This document shows, in pieces, positions 25,413-42,118 of a stretch of DNA of 64,000 nt. Under the pieces are notes generated by a model. It saw only the letters and a list, made by a program, of their open reading frames with translations. It did not search any database and was not told the DNA's origin. The DNA is from Anaerolinea sp. (GTDB lineage Bacteria; Chloroflexota; Anaerolineae; Anaerolineales; Villigracilaceae): NCBI GenBank assembly GCA_020723805.1, contig DYID01000016.1:21654-85653 (forward strand). Reading direction: 5' to 3'. Numbering within the stretch: position 1 is the first letter of the stretch; each line of letters begins with the position of its first letter. A program made the translations under genes and the position numbers.

Positions 25413-26486
25413 ATGCTCGATAAATTAAAAGGTATCGAAGACCGTTACGAACAACTCAGCAGGGAACTGCTCGAGGTGGGTAACGATTATCAGCGCATGG
25501 CGGAAATCAACAAGGAACGCGTCGAACTGGAAGAGATCGTCGAGAAGGCACGGGAATACCGTCAGGCGGTGAAAAGCCTGGAGGAGGCGCGGGCAATTCT
25601 CCAGTCCGAGAAGGATGCGGAACTGGTGGCGCTGGCGGAGGCGGATATCGAGGAGTTGACTCCAAAAATCGAAGCGCTCGAAAAGCAGATCAAGTCTCTG
25701 CTGGTGCCGAAGGACCCGCGCGACGAAAAGAACGTCATCATGGAAATCCGCGCAGGCGCCGGCGGCGACGAAGCCGCCATCTTTGCCGGCGATTTGTTCC
25801 GCATGTACACGCGCTACGCCGACGAGAAGAAATGGAAGACCGAAATTCTTTCGGAAAATGCCATCGGCGTGGGCGGCTACAAGGAAGTGATTTTCGAGAT
25901 TCGCGGTAAGGGCGCGTATTCGAAGTTGAAATACGAATCGGGCGTGCACCGTGTCCAGCGCGTGCCGGCGACCGAGTCGCAGGGACGCATCCACACCTCC
26001 ACAGCGACAGTGGCAGTGCTGGCGGAAGTGGACGAGGTGGAAATTGACATCCCCGAAAGCGATATCGAAATCGAGGTCTATCGCTCCTCCGGCGCAGGCG
26101 GGCAGAACGTGCAAAAGAACTCGACGGCGGTGCGCCTGTATCACAAACCGACCGGCATGGTGGTCACCTGTCAGGACGAGCGCTCGCAGCTGCAGAACAA
26201 ACTGCGCGCCATGAGCATCTTGCGCGCGCGGTTGTACGAGATGGAAGAGGAGAAGCGCCGAGCGGCGCTCGAGGCAGACCGCCGCTCGCAGGTGGGGACC
26301 GGTGAACGGTCCGAAAAGATTCGCACCTACAATTACCCTCAAAACCGCGTCACCGATCACCGCATCGGCTTGTCCATCTACAACCTGCCCGCCGTCATGG
26401 ATGGAAAGATTGATGAGTTCATCGAGGAACTGTCCACGCGCGACGAGGCGGAACGGCTTGCCGCAAGCGGGGTAGAAGAAGAGTAA
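25413..26486 (+). CDS. prfA: Peptide chain release factor 1
   Basis: 357 residues, the normal RF1 length. It recognises UAA/UAG and triggers peptide release. The codon-recognition tripeptide PAT is in [18 protein letters not shown], and the catalytic GGQ at 229-231 lies in [27 protein letters not shown] and ITDHRIGLS-like segments are standard. The GGQ glutamine is the methylation target of PrmC, encoded about 1.2 kb downstream. Confidence 0.95.
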
Positions 26487-33855: not shown

Positions 33856-35415
33856 ATGAAAAAACAAAATTCCCACCTGCGGTTCCTTTCAGCGCTTATG
33901 CTTCTTGCAATCCTCTCACTGGCATGCGGGAGCACGCCAGTGGAGGTCATTCCGCCGACTGCCACATTCACCGCCATTCCTCCCACGGCAACACCCCTCC
34001 CCACCAACACCCCGCTGCCAACGCCCAAGCCCATTCCGACAATTTCCGAACTTTCCCAAGCCACTGTTCAAATTCTCGCAATGATAGGCGATGAAGCCGA
34101 ATGGTGGGGTTCCGGGACAATCATTTCCAGCGACGGCTTGATCCTGACAAACGCGCATGTTGCCGATCCGCAGGCGGCAGGTTTGGCATTGCTCTACGAA
34201 AATGTGGATTTGATTTTCAGTCCCATGCCGGATTCACTGGTTGTCGCATTGATAGACAACGAAAGCCGTCCGCCGGTCCAAAAATACATTGCCGAAGTAA
34301 TCGGCTCCGACGGTGCGCTCGACCTGGCGCTTTTACAGATCGTCTCGGATATGGAAGGAAACCCCATTGACAAAGGGAGCCTCAATCTGCCCTTTGTGGA
34401 ATTAGGCGACTCGGATCAGGTGCAATTGGGCGACGGCATCAGAATTTTTGGCTTTCCAGGCATCGGAGGAGAGACGCTCACACTAACAAAGGGGACGGTT
34501 TCGGGCTTTGAAAGTCAGGAGGAGGTCGGAGACAAGGCATTTATCAAGACCGACTCTGAAATTTCGGGAGGAAATTCCGGCGGGCTTGCAGTAAACGAAG
34601 CAGGTGAAATGATTGGCATTCCAACATGGGTCAATTTCTCCGATACAGGTTCCGTGATTGGAAGGTTAAGATCCATCAATCTTGCCAAACCCATGATCGA
34701 AGCGGCTGGCGCAGGCAGAAAATATCAAAGCAAATTCACGCATGAGGGAAGCGGAAACGAGGCATTCACCCTCACAACCTGGTCCAAGGACTACGATGAG
34801 GAAGAATGTCCGATTGACCCTCTCGAGCGATATTCATCAGGCTCGCTCGGCATCGTCAGTGTGTGGAGTTTCGACAACATGACTGATGGTGAAGACTTTG
34901 CCGTCTTTTATTACCACAACCATCAATTTATCTACTACTCATTCTGGAAATGGGAGGACGGCATCAGCGATGAGTGTTACGCCATCTGGCTCAATTACGG
35001 TGGACAAGCCATGCCCGACGGCGATTACACCCTCGAAATACTTGCCGGCAAAGGATACCCCCGCATTGCCATTGCAGATACAACTGTGGGACCGGTCAAA
35101 AGCGGAGACATCACAATAAAAGGACAGATTTTCGATTACTTCACCGGCAAAGAGCTGGAAGGAGCAAGTTTCATTGTGCTGAATCCCAATGTAGACCCGC
35201 AAGACTGGCTGGCGAACCCCGACAACGCCGATGTTTACAGCACTGCAATTACAGATACCAACGGAAATTTCACGCTTCCAGCCCCGTTGGAGCGCCTCGT
35301 GGAATATCCGGCGGTCGCCATCGCAGACGGCTACAATTTCGCCACCGGCTTCCTGCGCTATGGCATGACCGATCCCAACGTAGATACACTTTATATTTCC
35401 CTCGAACCCCGCTAA
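33856..35415 (+). CDS. Trypsin-like (S1C/HtrA-type) serine protease lipoprotein
   Basis: 519 residues. A lipoprotein signal with lipobox LSLAC (C24), a Thr/Pro linker (30-62), then a trypsin-fold domain with the triad H101 (TNAHV), D156 (DLALL) and S241 (GGNSGG). No PDZ domain follows. The C-terminal half has a beta-rich domain and a carboxypeptidase-regulatory-like domain (VKSGDITIKGQIFDYFTGKE ...). It would act on the outer face of the membrane. Its neighbours, a PrsW-like protease and a membrane protein, suggest a proteolytic envelope system. Confidence 0.82.
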   Translation: MKKQNSHLRFLSALMLLAILSLACGSTPVEVIPPTATFTAIPPTATPLPTNTPLPTPKPIPTISELSQATVQILAMIGDEAEWWGSGTIISSDGLILTNAHVADPQAAGLALLYENVDLIFSPMPDSLVVALIDNESRPPVQKYIAEVIGSDGALDLALLQIVSDMEGNPIDKGSLNLPFVELGDSDQVQLGDGIRIFGFPGIGGETLTLTKGTVSGFESQEEVGDKAFIKTDSEISGGNSGGLAVNEAGEMIGIPTWVNFSDTGSVIGRLRSINLAKPMIEAAGAGRKYQSKFTHEGSGNEAFTLTTWSKDYDEEECPIDPLERYSSGSLGIVSVWSFDNMTDGEDFAVFYYHNHQFIYYSFWKWEDGISDECYAIWLNYGGQAMPDGDYTLEILAGKGYPRIAIADTTVGPVKSGDITIKGQIFDYFTGKELEGASFIVLNPNVDPQDWLANPDNADVYSTAITDTNGNFTLPAPLERLVEYPAVAIADGYNFATGFLRYGMTDPNVDTLYISLEPR

Positions 35416-35483: not shown

Positions 35484-36029
35484 TCACTCCAAATACCTGG
35501 CAAACTCTGCTTCGAATTCTTCCTCTGTCGTGAAGCCCACCCATTTCTTCAGGACATTGCCGTCCCCATCCAGCAAATAGACTTCCGGCTGATAGTAAAA
35601 CCCAAGTTGTTGTTGGAAGGGTTGCGTGGCGGGATCGTCGGCATCCAGATAGACAAAGTTGATCCTGCCAAAATACTTCGCTTCGAGCCCATGAACCATG
35701 GGCGCCATGGCGCGGCAGGTGCCTCAGGTAAAGCGGAAAAATTCCACGAACTGCAGCTGCCCGGAAGCCAGGTTGACTGTGGATGGGTCGGTGGCGTGCA
35801 GGTCGGGTCCGCGGGAGGTGGCGATGGGAAGAGGCGTCGGCGCGGCGGATTCGGGAGGCAGGGTCGCCGCTTCGCTTGGGGCGGGCGTGGCGCTCGCTTC
35901 TGCCGCGACGGGGGAGGCTGGCGCCTGCACCGACGGCTGATCCACGCTGGGAGCAGGGGAAGCCGCCGGGGCGCACGAAGCCAATAAGAGGGCAATCAGG
36001 ATAAGGGTCGGAAAGAGGCGGGTTTTCAT
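35484..36029 (-). CDS. Thioredoxin-like lipoprotein, candidate selenoprotein (TGA = Sec102)
   Basis: 181 residues if the in-frame TGA at 35724-35726 is read through. Lipoprotein signal (LLASC), Pro/Ala linker, then a thioredoxin-like domain: QLQFVEFFRFT-[TGA]-GTCRAMAPMVHG. The TGA falls exactly where thioredoxins have the first Cys of CxxC, giving U-G-T-C; the second Cys is intact. The frame continues with normal domain sequence (FVYLDADDPATQPF ... YYQPEVYLLDGDG). ATG 36029 has AAAGGA. A 7-bp stem-loop sits 20 nt after the TGA. Alternatives are a recent nonsense mutation or a sequencing error. Confidence 0.7.
35687..35703 (-). promoter_or_regulatory. Candidate bacterial SECIS stem-loop
   Basis: On the coding (minus) strand GCCCATG-GTT-CATGGGC folds as a perfect 7-bp stem with loop GTT. 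It begins 20 nt after the TGA, within the distance at which bacterial SECIS hairpins present their apical G/U bases to SelB. It also codes for protein. Confidence 0.55.
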
Positions 36030-36121
36030 CGTGTGTCCTTTGCGAATAGGACATCTTATATCCGAAAATCCTTACCCGCCGATGAATGGATGTTCGTCAC
36101 GGCAAATCCCGATGCTCATCT

Positions 36122-36150
36122 TTGACGGTTGTGAAATCCTAGACTATACT
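36122..36150 (+). promoter_or_regulatory. Sigma-70-type promoter for pruA
   Basis: TTGACG (36122-36127), 17-bp spacer, TATACT (36145-36150), 60 bp before the pruA start. This is the best-matching promoter in the window. Short TCAGACTAT-like direct repeats (36162-36195) lie between it and the ribosome-binding site. Confidence 0.75.
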
Positions 36151-36210
36151 TCGCTCGTCGTTAGTCAGACTATTAGACTATAAGACTATCAGACTTCTAC
36201 AGGAGGAAGC

Positions 36211-37860
36211 ATGGCTTTCAAACTTACCTACGCCACGATGTTCAATCCCCCCGAGGAACTGCACAAAGGATTCGACAAGGCTGTCGCCAAACTCAAGGAC
36301 AACTTGGGCAAGGAATACGGCATGTTCATTGATGGGCGGGATGTCTTCGCGGACGAGAAATTCGAAGACCGCTCGCCAGTCAACACCGATTGGGTGCTGG
36401 CGGTGATGCAGAAAGGCAATGCCTCGCACGCTCAAATGGCGATGGAAGCCGCCCGTAAGGCGTTCCCCGCCTGGAGCCGCACACCCTGGAAGACCCGCGT
36501 CAAACTGGTGCGCAAGGCGGCGGCGCTGATCGAAAAGCGCATCTTCGAACTCGGCGCAGCGATGGCGCTGGAAGTGGGCAAGAACCGCATGGAATCACTC
36601 GGCGACGTGCAGGAAACCGCCGACCTGATGTACTGGTCTGCCCAAATGATGGAGGAGAACAACGGCTTCATCCGCGAGATGGGCAAAGACCCTCTTGTCG
36701 GTTACGATGCGACCAACATCTCGGTGCTGAAGCCCTACGGCGTGTGGCTGGTGGTCTCGCCGTTCAACTTCCCGTTCGCTTTGAGCGGCGGTCCCGTGGG
36801 CGCCGCCCTCGTGGCTGGGAACACGGTTGTCCTCAAGCCCGCCACCGACACCGCCTGGATCGTGCGCCTCTATGCCGAATGCCTGCGCGACGCCGGTTTC
36901 CCGCCTGGCGTGTTCAACTTCGTCACCGGTCCCGGCTCCACGCTGGGGCAGGCGCTGGTGGACAGCCCCGAACTGGACGGCGCTACCTTCACCGGCTCCT
37001 TCGACGTGGGCATGAAGATGTACCGCGATCTCGCAAACCGCAACTACGTCCGCCCGGTGGTGCTGGAACTCGGCGGCAAGAACCCTGCCATCGTCTCCCG
37101 CCATGCCAACCTGGAAGACGCCTCCACCGGCATCGTCCGCTCGGCGTTTGGCTTGCAGGGACAGAAATGTTCCGCCGCCTCGCGCGTGCTCGTCGAGGAA
37201 CCGGTCTATGACGAACTGGTTGCCCTGCTCAAGGCAAAGACCGAAAAACTCGTCATCGGCGACCCGACCGAACGCACCACCTATCTCGGTCCCGTCATCA
37301 ACCAGGGCGCTTACAACGACTTCAAGAACTTCTGCGAAGAAATCAGCCAGGCGGGCGGCAACTTCCTGACCGGCGGTCACGTCAAGACCGGCGGCATGTT
37401 CGACAAGGGCTACTTCTGCGAACCCACCCTTGTCACCGATCTGCCTTTCAGCCACCGCCTCTGGCAGTATGAAATGTTCCTGCCCATCACCACCATCGGC
37501 AAGGTCAGGGATCTCGACGAAGCCATGCAGATTGCCAACAGCGTCAACTACGGACTGACCGCCGGCTTCTACGGCAACGCCAAGGAAGTCAAGTGGTTCT
37601 TCGACAACATCGAAGCGGGCGTCACCTACGCCAACCGTCCGCAGGGCGCCACCACCGGCGCGTGGCCCGGCTTCCAACCCTTCGGCGGCTGGAAAGGCTC
37701 CGGCGCCACCGGCAAGAACGGCGGCGGTTACTACTACGTCCAACTCTACATGCACGAACAAATCCAAACGCTCATCAAACCCGCCCCCGTCAAAAAGGCA
37801 GCGAAAGCCGCCAAGAAGCCGGTCAAAAAGGCTGGAAAGAAAGGCACAAAACGCAAGTAA
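36211..37860 (+). CDS. pruA: L-glutamate gamma-semialdehyde (P5C) dehydrogenase
   Basis: 549 residues. It oxidises glutamate semialdehyde to glutamate with NAD+, completing proline catabolism started by the PRODH at 1281. Aldehyde dehydrogenase landmarks are VSPFNFPFALSGGP, TGSFDVG, the general base E286 in LELGGK and nucleophile C320 in GQKCSA. The length and N-terminus fit the RocA/PruA group. The last 25 residues are an unusual Lys/Ala/Pro tail (VKKAAKAAKKPVKKAGKKG). AGGAGGA precedes the ATG. Ends at a strong terminator. Confidence 0.92.
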   Translation: MAFKLTYATMFNPPEELHKGFDKAVAKLKDNLGKEYGMFIDGRDVFADEKFEDRSPVNTDWVLAVMQKGNASHAQMAMEAARKAFPAWSRTPWKTRVKLVRKAAALIEKRIFELGAAMALEVGKNRMESLGDVQETADLMYWSAQMMEENNGFIREMGKDPLVGYDATNISVLKPYGVWLVVSPFNFPFALSGGPVGAALVAGNTVVLKPATDTAWIVRLYAECLRDAGFPPGVFNFVTGPGSTLGQALVDSPELDGATFTGSFDVGMKMYRDLANRNYVRPVVLELGGKNPAIVSRHANLEDASTGIVRSAFGLQGQKCSAASRVLVEEPVYDELVALLKAKTEKLVIGDPTERTTYLGPVINQGAYNDFKNFCEEISQAGGNFLTGGHVKTGGMFDKGYFCEPTLVTDLPFSHRLWQYEMFLPITTIGKVRDLDEAMQIANSVNYGLTAGFYGNAKEVKWFFDNIEAGVTYANRPQGATTGAWPGFQPFGGWKGSGATGKNGGGYYYVQLYMHEQIQTLIKPAPVKKAAKAAKKPVKKAGKKGTKRK

Positions 37861-37867
37861 ACTCCCC

Positions 37868-37896
37868 AAGCCCTTCCTGAAAAGGGAGGGCTTTTT
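37868..37896 (+). terminator. Rho-independent terminator after pruA
   Basis: AAGCCCTTCC pairs with GGGAGGGCTT (one G-T wobble) around a 6-nt loop, followed by TTT. It starts 8 nt after the pruA stop. Confidence 0.8.
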
Positions 37897-37900
37897 GATT

Positions 37901-37944
37901 GACCGCAGACGATAAACCACGGACCGCCACCATCGTCTGCGGTC
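37901..37944. repeat. Inverted repeat with GACCGCAGACGAT arms
   Basis: Perfect 13-bp arms (37901-37913 and 37932-37944) around an 18-nt loop, located between the pruA terminator and the methyltransferase start. A dispersed palindrome type different from the others in the window. Confidence 0.75.
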
Positions 37945-37958
37945 CATTATCAAATCCT

Positions 37959-38717
37959 ATGCCTTGGAATCCCGACCTTTATCACAAATTTCAATCCGAG
38001 CGCGCCGCGCCGTTCTACGACCTGCTCGCCCTGCTGGAAGTGCGCCCGCATCTCAAGGTCATTGACCTGGGATGCGGCACCGGCGAACTCACCCGTCAAC
38101 TGGCAGACCGCCTGCCAGAGAGTCATGTGACGGGGCTGGACTCATCCCCGCAAATGCTGGACAAAGCCGCCTCTTTCTCGACCTCGAATCTGGTCTTCCA
38201 ACTCGGAGACCAAGCCACGCTGACAGGGGAATGGGACCTCATCTTCAGCAATGCCGCTCTACAGTGGAGCGAAAACCACGCCGAACTCATCCCCCGTCTG
38301 TTCGGATGCCTTACGCCCGGCGGACAGATTGCCGTGCAGGTGCCGTCCAATCACAATCACATCTCCCATCAAATCTACCGCGAGAGCGCGGCAGAGGAAC
38401 CCTTCCGTTCCATTCTCAGCGGTTTCCAGCGGCATTCACCCGTGCTGACCATTGACGAGTATGCGCGTCTGCTCTTCGACTGCGGCGCGGAGGCAATCAC
38501 CGTCTTCGAGAAGGTGTATCCGCACGTTCTGGCGGATTCCGACGCGGTGGTAGAATGGATTTCTGGCACGGCGCTCGTCCCCTATTTCGAACGGCTTGGA
38601 AATCACAAAGACGACTTCCTTCAAGTCATTCGCGCCAAAATGCGCGCCGCCCTGCCCGAAAGTCCGGTGTTCTATCCGTTCCGGCGCATCCTTTTCTCCG
38701 CAAAAAAGCCAAACTAA
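37959..38717 (+). CDS. Trans-aconitate 2-methyltransferase-like SAM methyltransferase
   Basis: 252 residues. Rossmann SAM motif LKVIDLGCGTGELTRQLADRLPESHVTGLDSS, then FSNAALQW, which is characteristic of trans-aconitate methyltransferase (Tam), and SVLPGGQIAVQVP-like LTPGGQIAVQVPSN. Tam methyl-esterifies trans-aconitate, an aconitase inhibitor. The substrate is inferred. ATG 37959 (MPWNPDLYHKF) is the standard Tam N-terminus. Confidence 0.82.
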   Translation: MPWNPDLYHKFQSERAAPFYDLLALLEVRPHLKVIDLGCGTGELTRQLADRLPESHVTGLDSSPQMLDKAASFSTSNLVFQLGDQATLTGEWDLIFSNAALQWSENHAELIPRLFGCLTPGGQIAVQVPSNHNHISHQIYRESAAEEPFRSILSGFQRHSPVLTIDEYARLLFDCGAEAITVFEKVYPHVLADSDAVVEWISGTALVPYFERLGNHKDDFLQVIRAKMRAALPESPVFYPFRRILFSAKKPN

Positions 38718-38726
38718 ACGACAACC

Positions 38727-38993
38727 ATGGGCGCACCGCAGGATTACGACCGCAAGGAAATTCTTTATCGTATCGGCACCTTCTTCCTGCTCTTGGGGGT
38801 GGGGCTGCTGATTTTCTTCATGATGTCCGAAGCCGAACAGACCCCCATGTTCAGTTACTTCTGCTGGAGCATGGTGTTTCTCATCGTCGGCTTTCTCTTT
38901 CGCGCTCAGTACAAAAAGGCGCTGCCGCCCAGCGGACGTTTCAGCATTCTCAAAAAACTCAAACCCAAACCCAAAGAAGAGGCGAAAAAATGA
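38727..38993 (+). CDS. Two-helix membrane protein of unknown function
   Basis: 88 residues with two membrane helices (IGTFFLLLGVGLLIFFMM and YFCWSMVFLIVGFLFRAQY) and a Lys-rich tail (KKLKPKPKEEAKK). It starts 9 nt after the methyltransferase stop and overlaps the CoA-transferase A gene by 4 nt (ATGA). It is too small and simple to assign. Confidence 0.65.
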   Translation: MGAPQDYDRKEILYRIGTFFLLLGVGLLIFFMMSEAEQTPMFSYFCWSMVFLIVGFLFRAQYKKALPPSGRFSILKKLKPKPKEEAKK

Positions 38994-39892
38994 GCAAACT
39001 GACATCGCTCTCTGATGCCATTGCAAAGTATGTGAACGACGGCGATACCGTCTATGCGGCGGGTTTCACCCACCTCATCCCCTTCGCGGCGGGACATGAA
39101 ATCATCCGCCAGGGAAAGAAGGACCTCACCCTCGCCCGCGCCACCCCCGATTTGATTTACGACCAGATGGTCGCGGCGGGATGCGCAAGGAAGGTCATCT
39201 TCTCGTACATGGGCAACCCCGGCGTGGGGAGCCTGCGCATCGTCCGCGCCGCCATCGAAAAGGGAGAATTGGAATGGGAGGAGTATTCCCACTTCGGCAT
39301 GATTACGCGCCTGCAGGCAGGTGCAGCGGGTCTGCCCTTTTTGCCCATGAACCAGACCGGCGCCACCGACCTCGAGCGCGTCAACCCCAACATCAAACGC
39401 ATCCCCGACCCCTACGGCGGCAAGGACGTCATCGTCGTCCCCGCCCTCAACCCCGATGTAGCCATCGTCCACGTCCAGCGTGCGGATGAAAACGGCAACG
39501 CGCACTTGTGGGGCATCATCGGCGAACAGAAGGAAGCCGCCTTTGCCGCGAAAAAGGTCATCGTCACGGCAGAGGAAATTGTGGACGAATCCGTCATCAG
39601 GTCCGACCCGAACCGCACGATGATTCCCGGCATCGTCGTCAGCGCGGTGTGTCATGTCCCGTTTGCCTGTCATCCATCCTATGCGCAGGGATACTACGAC
39701 CGCGATAACGAGTTCTATCTGGCGTGGGACAAAATCAGCGAGTCGGTGGAGAGCGTGCGGGCGTGGCTGGATGAATGGGTGTATGGCGTGAAAGACCGCG
39801 CCGAATATTGGCAAAAACTCGGCAGTGAAACGCACGAACGCTTGAAAGTGGAAGCGCTTTACAGCGACCGCATCAATTACGGGAGATATTAA
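38990..39892 (+). CDS. CoA-transferase subunit A (GctA/IpdA-like)
   Basis: 300 residues, family I CoA-transferase alpha-type subunit. DGDTVYAAGFTHLIPFAAGHEIIRQ, ATPDLIYDQMVAAGCA, GNPGVGSLRIVRAAIEKGELEWEEYSHFGM and PFLPMNQTGATDLE resemble glutaconate CoA-transferase A and the related IpdA ring-hydrolysing proteins. The acyl substrate is unknown. The B subunit is at 41342, separated by a GxxExxY cassette and a hydrolase; in most genomes the two are adjacent. Confidence 0.82.
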   Translation: MSKLTSLSDAIAKYVNDGDTVYAAGFTHLIPFAAGHEIIRQGKKDLTLARATPDLIYDQMVAAGCARKVIFSYMGNPGVGSLRIVRAAIEKGELEWEEYSHFGMITRLQAGAAGLPFLPMNQTGATDLERVNPNIKRIPDPYGGKDVIVVPALNPDVAIVHVQRADENGNAHLWGIIGEQKEAAFAAKKVIVTAEEIVDESVIRSDPNRTMIPGIVVSAVCHVPFACHPSYAQGYYDRDNEFYLAWDKISESVESVRAWLDEWVYGVKDRAEYWQKLGSETHERLKVEALYSDRINYGRY

Positions 39893-39905
39893 ATCCACTA
39901 ATCCT

Positions 39906-40480
39906 CACTAATTTACGCTAATCTTTTGTAAATTCGTGGGGAGTGGCGAAGGTTAGTGGATCGGCTTATTCTCTCGTGGAAAAAGGAGAAGTCATGGCAG
40001 AGTTGTTGTTCAAGGATGAAGTCTATGTCATCATTGGTGCGGCAATGGAAGTTTATAATCAGTTGGGAGCGGGCTTTAGCGAAGCAATCTATCAGGACGC
40101 CATGGAGATCGAACTCACGAGCCGCAAAATTCCGAACGTCCCTCAACAGGATGTTTTCGTTTTCTATAAAGGACAAAAACTCAAGAACTTTTTCAAACCC
40201 GACTTCATGTGTTATGAAAAGATTGTCGTTGAGCTCAAGGCTCTCGACCAGTTGACATCACGTGAAGAAGCACAGATTTTAAATTACCTCAGAGCCACGG
40301 GACTTCCTGTCGGTTTGCTCATCAATTTCGGAAGGGAAAAAGATCTCGAATGGAAAAGAATGGTTTTAACTCCGGCGAAACCTGCTCAAACACCCAGGAA
40401 CCTTACGCCCCACAAACCCCTGCGGGTCAATGACCCCAAACCCATTGATCCCAATTCGTGAAGATTAGCGTAGATTAGCG
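39906..40480. mobile_element. Inverted-repeat-bracketed GxxExxY cassette
   Basis: CACTAATTTACGCTAATC (39906-39923) and GATTAGCGTAGATTAGCG (40463-40480) are inverted repeats matching at 16 of 18 positions by eye. They enclose one gene (39994-40461). AATTCGTG occurs just inside both ends. The unit begins 14 bp after the CoA-transferase A stop. There is no transposase, so if mobile it moves in trans. Confidence 0.55.
39994..40461 (+). CDS. GxxExxY family protein (PD-(D/E)XK-like)
   Basis: 155 residues. The family signature is GAGFSEAIYQDAM (GxxExxY). KNFFKPDFMCYEKIVVELKAL then gives D ... E-x-K as in PD-(D/E)XK nuclease folds, and LINFGREKDLEWKRMVL is the usual ending. Function is undefined; it may be a nuclease. 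The C-terminal tail past the family ending (LTPHKPLRVNDPKPIDPNS) runs into repeat-like sequence. AAAGGAG precedes ATG 39994. The gene is flanked by inverted repeats. Confidence 0.78.
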   Translation: MAELLFKDEVYVIIGAAMEVYNQLGAGFSEAIYQDAMEIELTSRKIPNVPQQDVFVFYKGQKLKNFFKPDFMCYEKIVVELKALDQLTSREEAQILNYLRATGLPVGLLINFGREKDLEWKRMVLTPAKPAQTPRNLTPHKPLRVNDPKPIDPNS

Positions 40481-40481
40481 G

Positions 40482-41312
40482 ATGAAAAATTTCACTCTTG
40501 GCGGTAACGGGCTGCCGCTTCATTTCCTACACGCCAACGGCTACCCGCCCGAATGTTACAAACCGTTGCTTGAACTCTTGAAAACCGACTACCGCGTCTT
40601 CGGGATGTACCTGCGCCCCTTGTGGGAAGGCTCCAAACCGCAGGAGATTCAAACCTGGCATCCGCTCTCGGATGACCTGCTGCGCTTCTTGTCGGACCGT
40701 GAGCCGGGTCCTGTCATCGGAGTGGGGCATTCGGTGGGAGCAGTCGTCACGCTGCGGGCGGCGCTGCGCGAACCGGACAGATTCCGCGCGCTGGTGTTGA
40801 TTGACCCGGTGCTGTTCGTCCCTGCCCGCCTCGCGGCATGGAGCATCATCCGCGCCCTCGGCATAGGCGACCGTCTGCATCCGCTCATCCGCACCGCCCA
40901 AAAGCGCCGCCGCACTTTCGATGACCTGGAGACCGTCTTTCGCGGCTACCGCACCCGCCCGCTCTTCCGCTACATGAGCGACGAAAGCCTGCGGGCGTAC
41001 ATCGCCGGCATCGCAAAACCCTCCACAAACGGCAGATACGAACTTGCCTACTCCCCCGAATGGGAAGCCCAAATCTACCGCACGGGACTGCGCGACTTCG
41101 ACATCTGGCGCAACCTGCCCAAACTCGAAGTGCCGACCCTCATCCTGCGCGGCGCAGAGACGGACACCTTCCTCGAAAACGCGGCAAGGCTCGTAAAGAA
41201 GAAACAGCCGAAGGTCAGGATTGAAACGCTGGAAAAGTCCACGCACATCCTGCCGCTGGAACGCCCGAAGGAAGTCTTCGACATCATGCAATCATTTTTA
41301 CGCAACGCATAG
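40482..41312 (+). CDS. Alpha/beta-fold hydrolase
   Basis: 276 residues. Oxyanion HANGYPPECY after the first strand, nucleophile S84 in GHSVGA, an acid in LRGAETDTFL and the His in STHILPLE complete the triad. It could be an esterase or a thioesterase; between two CoA-transferase subunit genes an acyl-ester or acyl-CoA substrate is possible but unproven. The ATG lies 2 nt after the right inverted repeat of the GxxExxY cassette, so its upstream region may have been replaced by the insertion. Confidence 0.78.
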   Translation: MKNFTLGGNGLPLHFLHANGYPPECYKPLLELLKTDYRVFGMYLRPLWEGSKPQEIQTWHPLSDDLLRFLSDREPGPVIGVGHSVGAVVTLRAALREPDRFRALVLIDPVLFVPARLAAWSIIRALGIGDRLHPLIRTAQKRRRTFDDLETVFRGYRTRPLFRYMSDESLRAYIAGIAKPSTNGRYELAYSPEWEAQIYRTGLRDFDIWRNLPKLEVPTLILRGAETDTFLENAARLVKKKQPKVRIETLEKSTHILPLERPKEVFDIMQSFLRNA

Positions 41313-41314
41313 CA

Positions 41315-41330
41315 GGCGTTCTCTAACGCC
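41315..41330. repeat. Hairpin repeat, CGTTCTCTAACG family
   Basis: Arms GGCGTT / AACGCC with loop CTCT, between the hydrolase stop and the AAGGAG of the next gene. Same family as 8471-8490 and 8530-8545. Confidence 0.7.
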
Positions 41331-41341
41331 GAAGGAGAATT

Positions 41342-42118
41342 ATGAACGAAACAACCTATTCCTCCGCCGAATTGATGATCATCAACGCCGCGCGCTTGCT
41401 GCGCGATGGCGACGTGGTCTTCGTCGGCGTCGGTCAGCCCAACCTGGCTTGCAACCTCGCCAAACGGACACACGCTCCCAACCTCGTGATGATTTACGAA
41501 GCCGGCGTCATTGGTGCGGAGCCTGCCCGCCTGCCGCTTTCCATCGGCGACCCCACGCTCGTGAGCGGCGCGCTCTCGGTGGTGAGCATGTACGATATTT
41601 TTGCGAACTACCTTCAGCGCGGCAACGTGGACGTGGGCTTCATGGGCGGCGCACAGATTGACAAGTTCGGCAACATTAACGCCACCGTCATTGGCAGTTA
41701 CGACCACCCCAAAGTGCGCCTGCCCGGCTCCGGCGGTTCGCAGGAAATCGCCGCGTGGGCAAACCGTTGTTACATCATGACCCCGCACCAAAAGCGGCGC
41801 TTCCCTGAAAAGGTCGAGTTTATGACCTCGGCGGGCTTCATCGGCGGGCGCGGCGACCGTGAAAAGGCGGGGCTGCGCGGCGGCGGCATGCTGGCGGTCG
41901 TCACCGACATTGGCATCCTCGAACCCGATGAAAACGGCGAGATGACCCTCACCGCTCTGCATCCCGGTCGAACCGCCGACGAGGCAAAAGCCAACACCGG
42001 CTGGGACTTGAAAATCGCCCCGCAACTGCGAACCACCCCGCCTCCCACCGAAAATGAACTGCGCATCCTGCGCGAAGAACTCGACCCCAAAGGCATCTAC
42101 CTCAAAAGCGGAGGCTAA
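41342..42118 (+). CDS. CoA-transferase subunit B (GctB/IpdB-like)
   Basis: 258 residues. RDGDVVFVGVGQPNLACNLAKR, MIYEAGVIGAEPARLP, DVGFMGGAQIDKFGNIN and the C-terminal TTPPPTENELRILREELDP are standard for the beta subunit of family I CoA-transferases. The Glu in YEAGVIG is at the position of the catalytic Glu in glutaconate CoA-transferase. Pairs with the A subunit at 38990. The stop directly abuts the next ATG. Confidence 0.82.
   Translation: MNETTYSSAELMIINAARLLRDGDVVFVGVGQPNLACNLAKRTHAPNLVMIYEAGVIGAEPARLPLSIGDPTLVSGALSVVSMYDIFANYLQRGNVDVGFMGGAQIDKFGNINATVIGSYDHPKVRLPGSGGSQEIAAWANRCYIMTPHQKRRFPEKVEFMTSAGFIGGRGDREKAGLRGGGMLAVVTDIGILEPDENGEMTLTALHPGRTADEAKANTGWDLKIAPQLRTTPPPTENELRILREELDPKGIYLKSGG

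Follow-up and report, generated by a model that had tools for sequence, protein, structure and literature searches.

The window, by which we mean the whole stretch of 64,000 nucleotides that was analysed, carries on its minus strand a gene that reads as a single open frame of 181 codons followed by an ordinary TGA stop, provided that one internal TGA is translated as selenocysteine (Sec, U) (Table 1). The initial annotation gave no strand and had described two halves in one frame separated by this TGA, which was borne out with the minus strand as the coding one. It had also placed the TGA at the first active-site Cys, at position 102 of the protein and with the resolving Cys intact, and the translation of the minus strand, FFRFT-U-GTCRAMAP, agrees on each point. 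The frame is open on both sides of a TGA that occupies a redox-active Cys position. An AGGA sequence resembling a ribosome-binding site lies just 5' of the ATG, while a promoter and terminator scan of the minus strand returned no usable prediction for the gene. On the plus strand and convergent with it, positions 33856–35412 encode a trypsin-like protease whose N-terminus is lipoprotein-like and which also has a linker rich in proline and threonine.

Table 1 Coordinates of the predicted selenolipoprotein gene, its parts and its divergent neighbour. Arrows give the direction of reading.
Feature	Position	Strand	Details
Predicted thioredoxin-domain selenolipoprotein gene, complete	35484..36029	minus	181 aa plus terminal TGA stop; putative Sec is residue 102
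Signal peptide and lipobox	35973..36029	minus	LLLASC, predicted lipidated Cys19; from sequence and alignment, by eye
Pro/Ala/Ser/Thr low-complexity linker	35826..35972	minus	residues 20–68; mostly pLDDT <50
Thioredoxin-fold domain	35487..35825	minus	residues 69–181; PF00085, AlphaFold2, Foldseek
Putative Sec TGA (U102)	35726->35724	minus	first position of the UGTC redox motif
Resolving Cys105	35715-35717	minus	TGC
bSECIS hairpin	35703->35687	minus	arm 35703->35697 GCCCATG; loop 35696->35694 GTT; arm 35693->35687 CATGGGC
Intergenic region	36030..36210		common to the selenolipoprotein gene and the divergent aldehyde dehydrogenase gene
Aldehyde dehydrogenase gene	36211-37860	plus	divergent from the selenolipoprotein gene

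The predicted product combines lipoprotein and thioredoxin features, as the initial annotation had proposed. At its N-terminus we found, by eye and from the alignment, the marks of a bacterial lipoprotein (MKTRLFPTLILIALLLASC, with C19 nearly invariant among orthologues), and LLLASC is what we take to be the lipobox from knowledge of the motif. The C-terminal domain matches the Pfam thioredoxin family PF00085 (E 4e-8; 33.6 bits against a gathering cut-off of 23.5). An AlphaFold2 model built from a ten-sequence alignment shows a confident thioredoxin fold from about residue 70, with pLDDT >90 over most of it and a disordered linker before it, and a Foldseek search with this model gave thioredoxins as the best solved matches (rmsd ~1.5 Å). 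A cis-Pro-like QP is conserved in this domain across the orthologue alignment.

By scanning contigs with peptide patterns that excluded the TGA, we recovered nine relatives; each comes from a Chloroflexota assembly and has TGA in the U102 column. Searching 396 genomes of the same class and retrieving the best matches brought the set to 79 loci, a few being duplicates in which one gene was taken from two collections, and one (L028) being the window gene itself. The U102 codon is TGA in 72 of these 79 loci, TGC in five and TGT in two, so that every locus has either the putative Sec codon or, in seven cases, a Cys codon in this column, the pattern that the initial annotation had named as support. 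The tree, which has 76 rows and is unrooted, contains a supported core that is entirely of the Sec type and holds 46 rows, the window gene among them. The seven Cys rows are scattered, several on long branches. Selenoprotein families are usually described with numerous Cys homologues (PMC12013277), whereas in the family sampled here most members are of the Sec type and those with Cys are few.

These distributions bear on whether a Cys-type gene could have acquired the TGA by mutation or through faulty base calling, given that one base separates it from TGC and TGT. The TGA recurs in dozens of independent assemblies, the same codon being found in 72 loci from separate genomes, which makes an isolated sequencing error at this codon very improbable. 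The sequence 3' of the TGA is under strong purifying selection (dN/dS 0.036 between the window gene and its closest relative, L002), which upholds the earlier argument against an old pseudogene, and the hairpin described below covaries. Taken together, the probability of a pseudogene or an error is negligible. As a check on chance within the window, we collected in-frame TGAs preceded by 60 or more open codons and followed by 50 or more (n = 119); two of these also combine a redox-like motif with a SECIS-like hairpin, one being the U102 TGA. The other, at 26166 on the minus strand, has a UxxC-like ARPDR-U-PPC motif and a hairpin, and probably passed this crude filter by chance.

The hairpin itself corresponds exactly to what had been described, namely a perfect 7-bp stem with a GTT loop beginning 20 nt after the TGA, which places the loop 27 nt from the TGA. 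Its 25-nt core folds with −11.5 kcal/mol (z −2.7) and the geometry, together with this energy, fits the published bSECIS model (PMC13188914). At z −0.6, the wider 52-nt segment does not stand out in its folding, and folding energy alone would thus be no proof of the hairpin; covariation does prove it. When the five stem pairs are scored in each of 68 distinct TGA sequences, 334 of the 340 resulting cells are Watson-Crick. When codons were exchanged only between sequences that agree in the amino acid encoded at a given column, 268±5 cells were paired, with a maximum of 286, and none of the 2000 shuffles reached 334, although these counts overstate independence, the sequences being related by phylogeny, a point partly met by the changes mapped on the tree. 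Codons drawn from the genes' own usage gave 200±6 paired cells, and sliding the 3' arm along gave 14 to 111. Both partners of a pair vary jointly, in repeated compensatory changes. With pairs numbered by nucleotides counted after the TGA, pair 24-34 occurs as C-G, T-A and G-C, pair 25-33 as A-T, G-C and T-A, and pair 22-36 as C-G and T-A; on the tree, pair 24-34 changed 8 times, with 8 changes of the 5' base and 7 of the 3' base. Over ten comparisons that each set the window gene against a relative, the SECIS codons showed 1 synonymous difference at 43 sites versus 326 at 404 sites further downstream. On this comparative evidence, the hairpin is under RNA-level selection.

In most Cys homologues the stem is gone, together with much of the VHGLE peptide that it encodes. 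Because both are lost together, it may be the RNA, not the protein, that keeps VHGLE conserved, as far as the seven Cys sequences indicate. One genome without SelA (G288) holds three Cys-type relatives (L076, L083 and L090), and L076 retains four of the five stem pairs, as might be expected if its change from Sec to Cys were recent.

The genome of the window gene (assembly of 3.69 Mb, 97% complete) encodes the full Sec machinery, for which selA, selB, selC and selD had been named at the outset as the genes to look for. We found matches to SelA (449 bits), SelB (342 bits, cut-off 242) and SelD (359 bits, cut-off 125), as well as a tRNA-Sec (71.5 bits against a gathering score of 47) whose anticodon is TCA. 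In this genome, SelD (L026, C26:48744–49676) is a Sec form as well, with an in-frame TGA in the motif SACAGUASK, at a position where SelD proteins often carry Sec. Among the genomes with homologues, a strong SelA match is present in 57 of 59 with a TGA homologue versus one of five with a Cys homologue (Fisher p 1e-4, a test that likewise overstates the independence of related sequences), and the four SelA-negative Cys genomes also lack SelB above the cut-off. The exceptions are G232, which has the Sec machinery together with a distant Cys homologue; G315, which has a TGA homologue without detectable SelA in a 78% complete assembly; and G248, in which a TGA homologue is accompanied by a weak SelA match as well as tRNA-Sec and SelB. 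The last two assemblies are incomplete or fragmented.

Conservation of the downstream frame would likewise be expected if the TGA were read through as an amino acid other than Sec, whether by leakiness or by reassignment to Trp. However, TGA also terminates the same gene, the residue swaps with Cys at a redox position, the Cys state accompanies the absence of SelA, the Sec machinery is present in the genome, and the hairpin fits the bSECIS model. We consider such readthrough highly improbable. The protein is most probably a Sec-containing thioredoxin-fold lipoprotein (probability of about 0.96 from these genomic data). The earlier proposal of a real selenoprotein is thus supported by the Sec machinery, the Sec/Cys column and the covarying hairpin, and the tests able to refute it that could be run all came out in its favour.

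From these features we infer that Sec would be inserted at residue 102 in vivo, with the hairpin 20 nt past the UGA recruiting SelB and Sec-tRNA(UCA) so that the ribosome would place Sec there rather than terminate. The precursor would then be exported and lipidated at Cys19, and the flexible linker would keep the thioredoxin domain attached to the cytoplasmic membrane at its outer face, giving a predicted extracytoplasmic location. There, the Sec102 selenolate would attack a disulfide or an oxidised thiol of an extracytoplasmic substrate, and Cys105 would resolve the mixed selenenyl-sulfide. Electrons from the cytoplasm would then return the oxidised Sec-Cys pair to its reduced state, and a plausible source for them is the CcdA/DsbD-type membrane protein whose gene is present in the same genome.

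We regard a reductive direction as likely for the thioredoxin domain. It could instead act as a thiol oxidase, an isomerase or a peroxidase partner rather than as a general disulfide reductase, an alternative that shares the selenoprotein reading and differs in redox role only. The gene neighbourhood would be compatible with this alternative: what is conserved there is an aldehyde dehydrogenase, and a search of the compared loci for a substrate or a reductase revealed no neighbour with a functional link and no operon or partner from which the substrate could be read. By contrast, an N-terminal Sec in the UxxC of a thioredoxin fold and the cis-Pro-like QP would favour reduction, as would the CcdA-like gene, and we judge an oxidase, isomerase or peroxidase-partner role unlikely compared with the reductive one. 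The neighbourhood itself spans 36211–42115 in the window, with the aldehyde dehydrogenase, a methyltransferase, two CoA-transferase subunits and an alpha/beta hydrolase, and forms a cluster in most orthologous loci; the aldehyde dehydrogenase cluster is present at 7 of the 10 loci compared. This recurring aldehyde dehydrogenase/CoA-transferase arrangement supports vertical descent, and we rejected it as a functional link, reading it as synteny by descent.

Selenoproteins with a UxxC motif are on record for the thioredoxins of PF00085 (PMC13188914), which have the same fold and Pfam family as the window protein and Sec at the first CxxC-equivalent position, but the window protein adds a signal peptide, a lipobox and a long linker. 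It stays well below the curated cut-off of the thioredoxin equivalog TIGR01068 (32.6 bits versus 96.8). A second comparison is NF041057, the Rcas_1661 family thioredoxin-like (seleno)lipoprotein, whose name presumably points to a Roseiflexus (Chloroflexota) locus and whose members are likewise lipoproteins with a thioredoxin-like domain where Sec can occur. This family is given as DsbG-like UxxC (PMC13188914). Membership was rejected, with 20.8 bits versus a curated cut-off of 190 and a match confined to residues 9–107; other genes of the same genome match NF041057 better, also under the cut-off. UxxC thioredoxin-fold selenoproteins are well known, and the lipoprotein subfamily is new within them, since it falls under every NCBIfam cut-off and no paper on it or on Chloroflexota selenolipoproteins was found in the open-licence PMC literature. 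A pipeline that reads TGA as a stop would truncate the gene, with no NCBIfam cut-off reached to rescue it, and recognising it puts a redox gene back into the annotation of many genomes from a large environmental phylum.

At the scale of the phylum, we lean towards a picture in which extracytoplasmic thioredoxin lipoproteins of Chloroflexota form a branch that is lineage-wide and mainly encoded with Sec, where the overlapping SECIS shapes the active-site PxVHGLE and where some lineages have exchanged both active-site cysteines for Sec (UxxU) and so have true diselenide thioredoxins. The codon-level covariation offers a clear natural case of an RNA structure constraining the peptide beside an active site.

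Related thioredoxin lipoproteins in which both active-site Cys codons are TGA (UxxU) were seen at 13 loci (L080, L087 and L101–L111) from genomes of the same class (G207, G094, G281, G047, G352, G119, G208, G258, G252, G220 and G228). Their motifs include UGPU and FYAQG-U-GP-U, with a similar SECIS-like hairpin following in each case. Known UxxU selenoproteins include the Prx-like PF00578, NF041115 and FmdB (PMC13188914), and SelL is described as a diselenide protein (Shchedrina 2007, cited in PMC2398784). They share with the 13 loci Sec at both redox positions but are not given as PF00085 thioredoxins, a family for which the review consulted (PMC13188914) has UxxC alone, and they differ from the window gene, which is UxxC. 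By their codons, the 13 are probable diselenide thioredoxins, and UxxU thioredoxins of PF00085 may be more novel than the UxxC gene of the window; they would offer a direct route to the effect of a full diselenide on thioredoxin potential and kinetics. Four of these relatives were compared with PF00085, and all four exceeded its cut-off.
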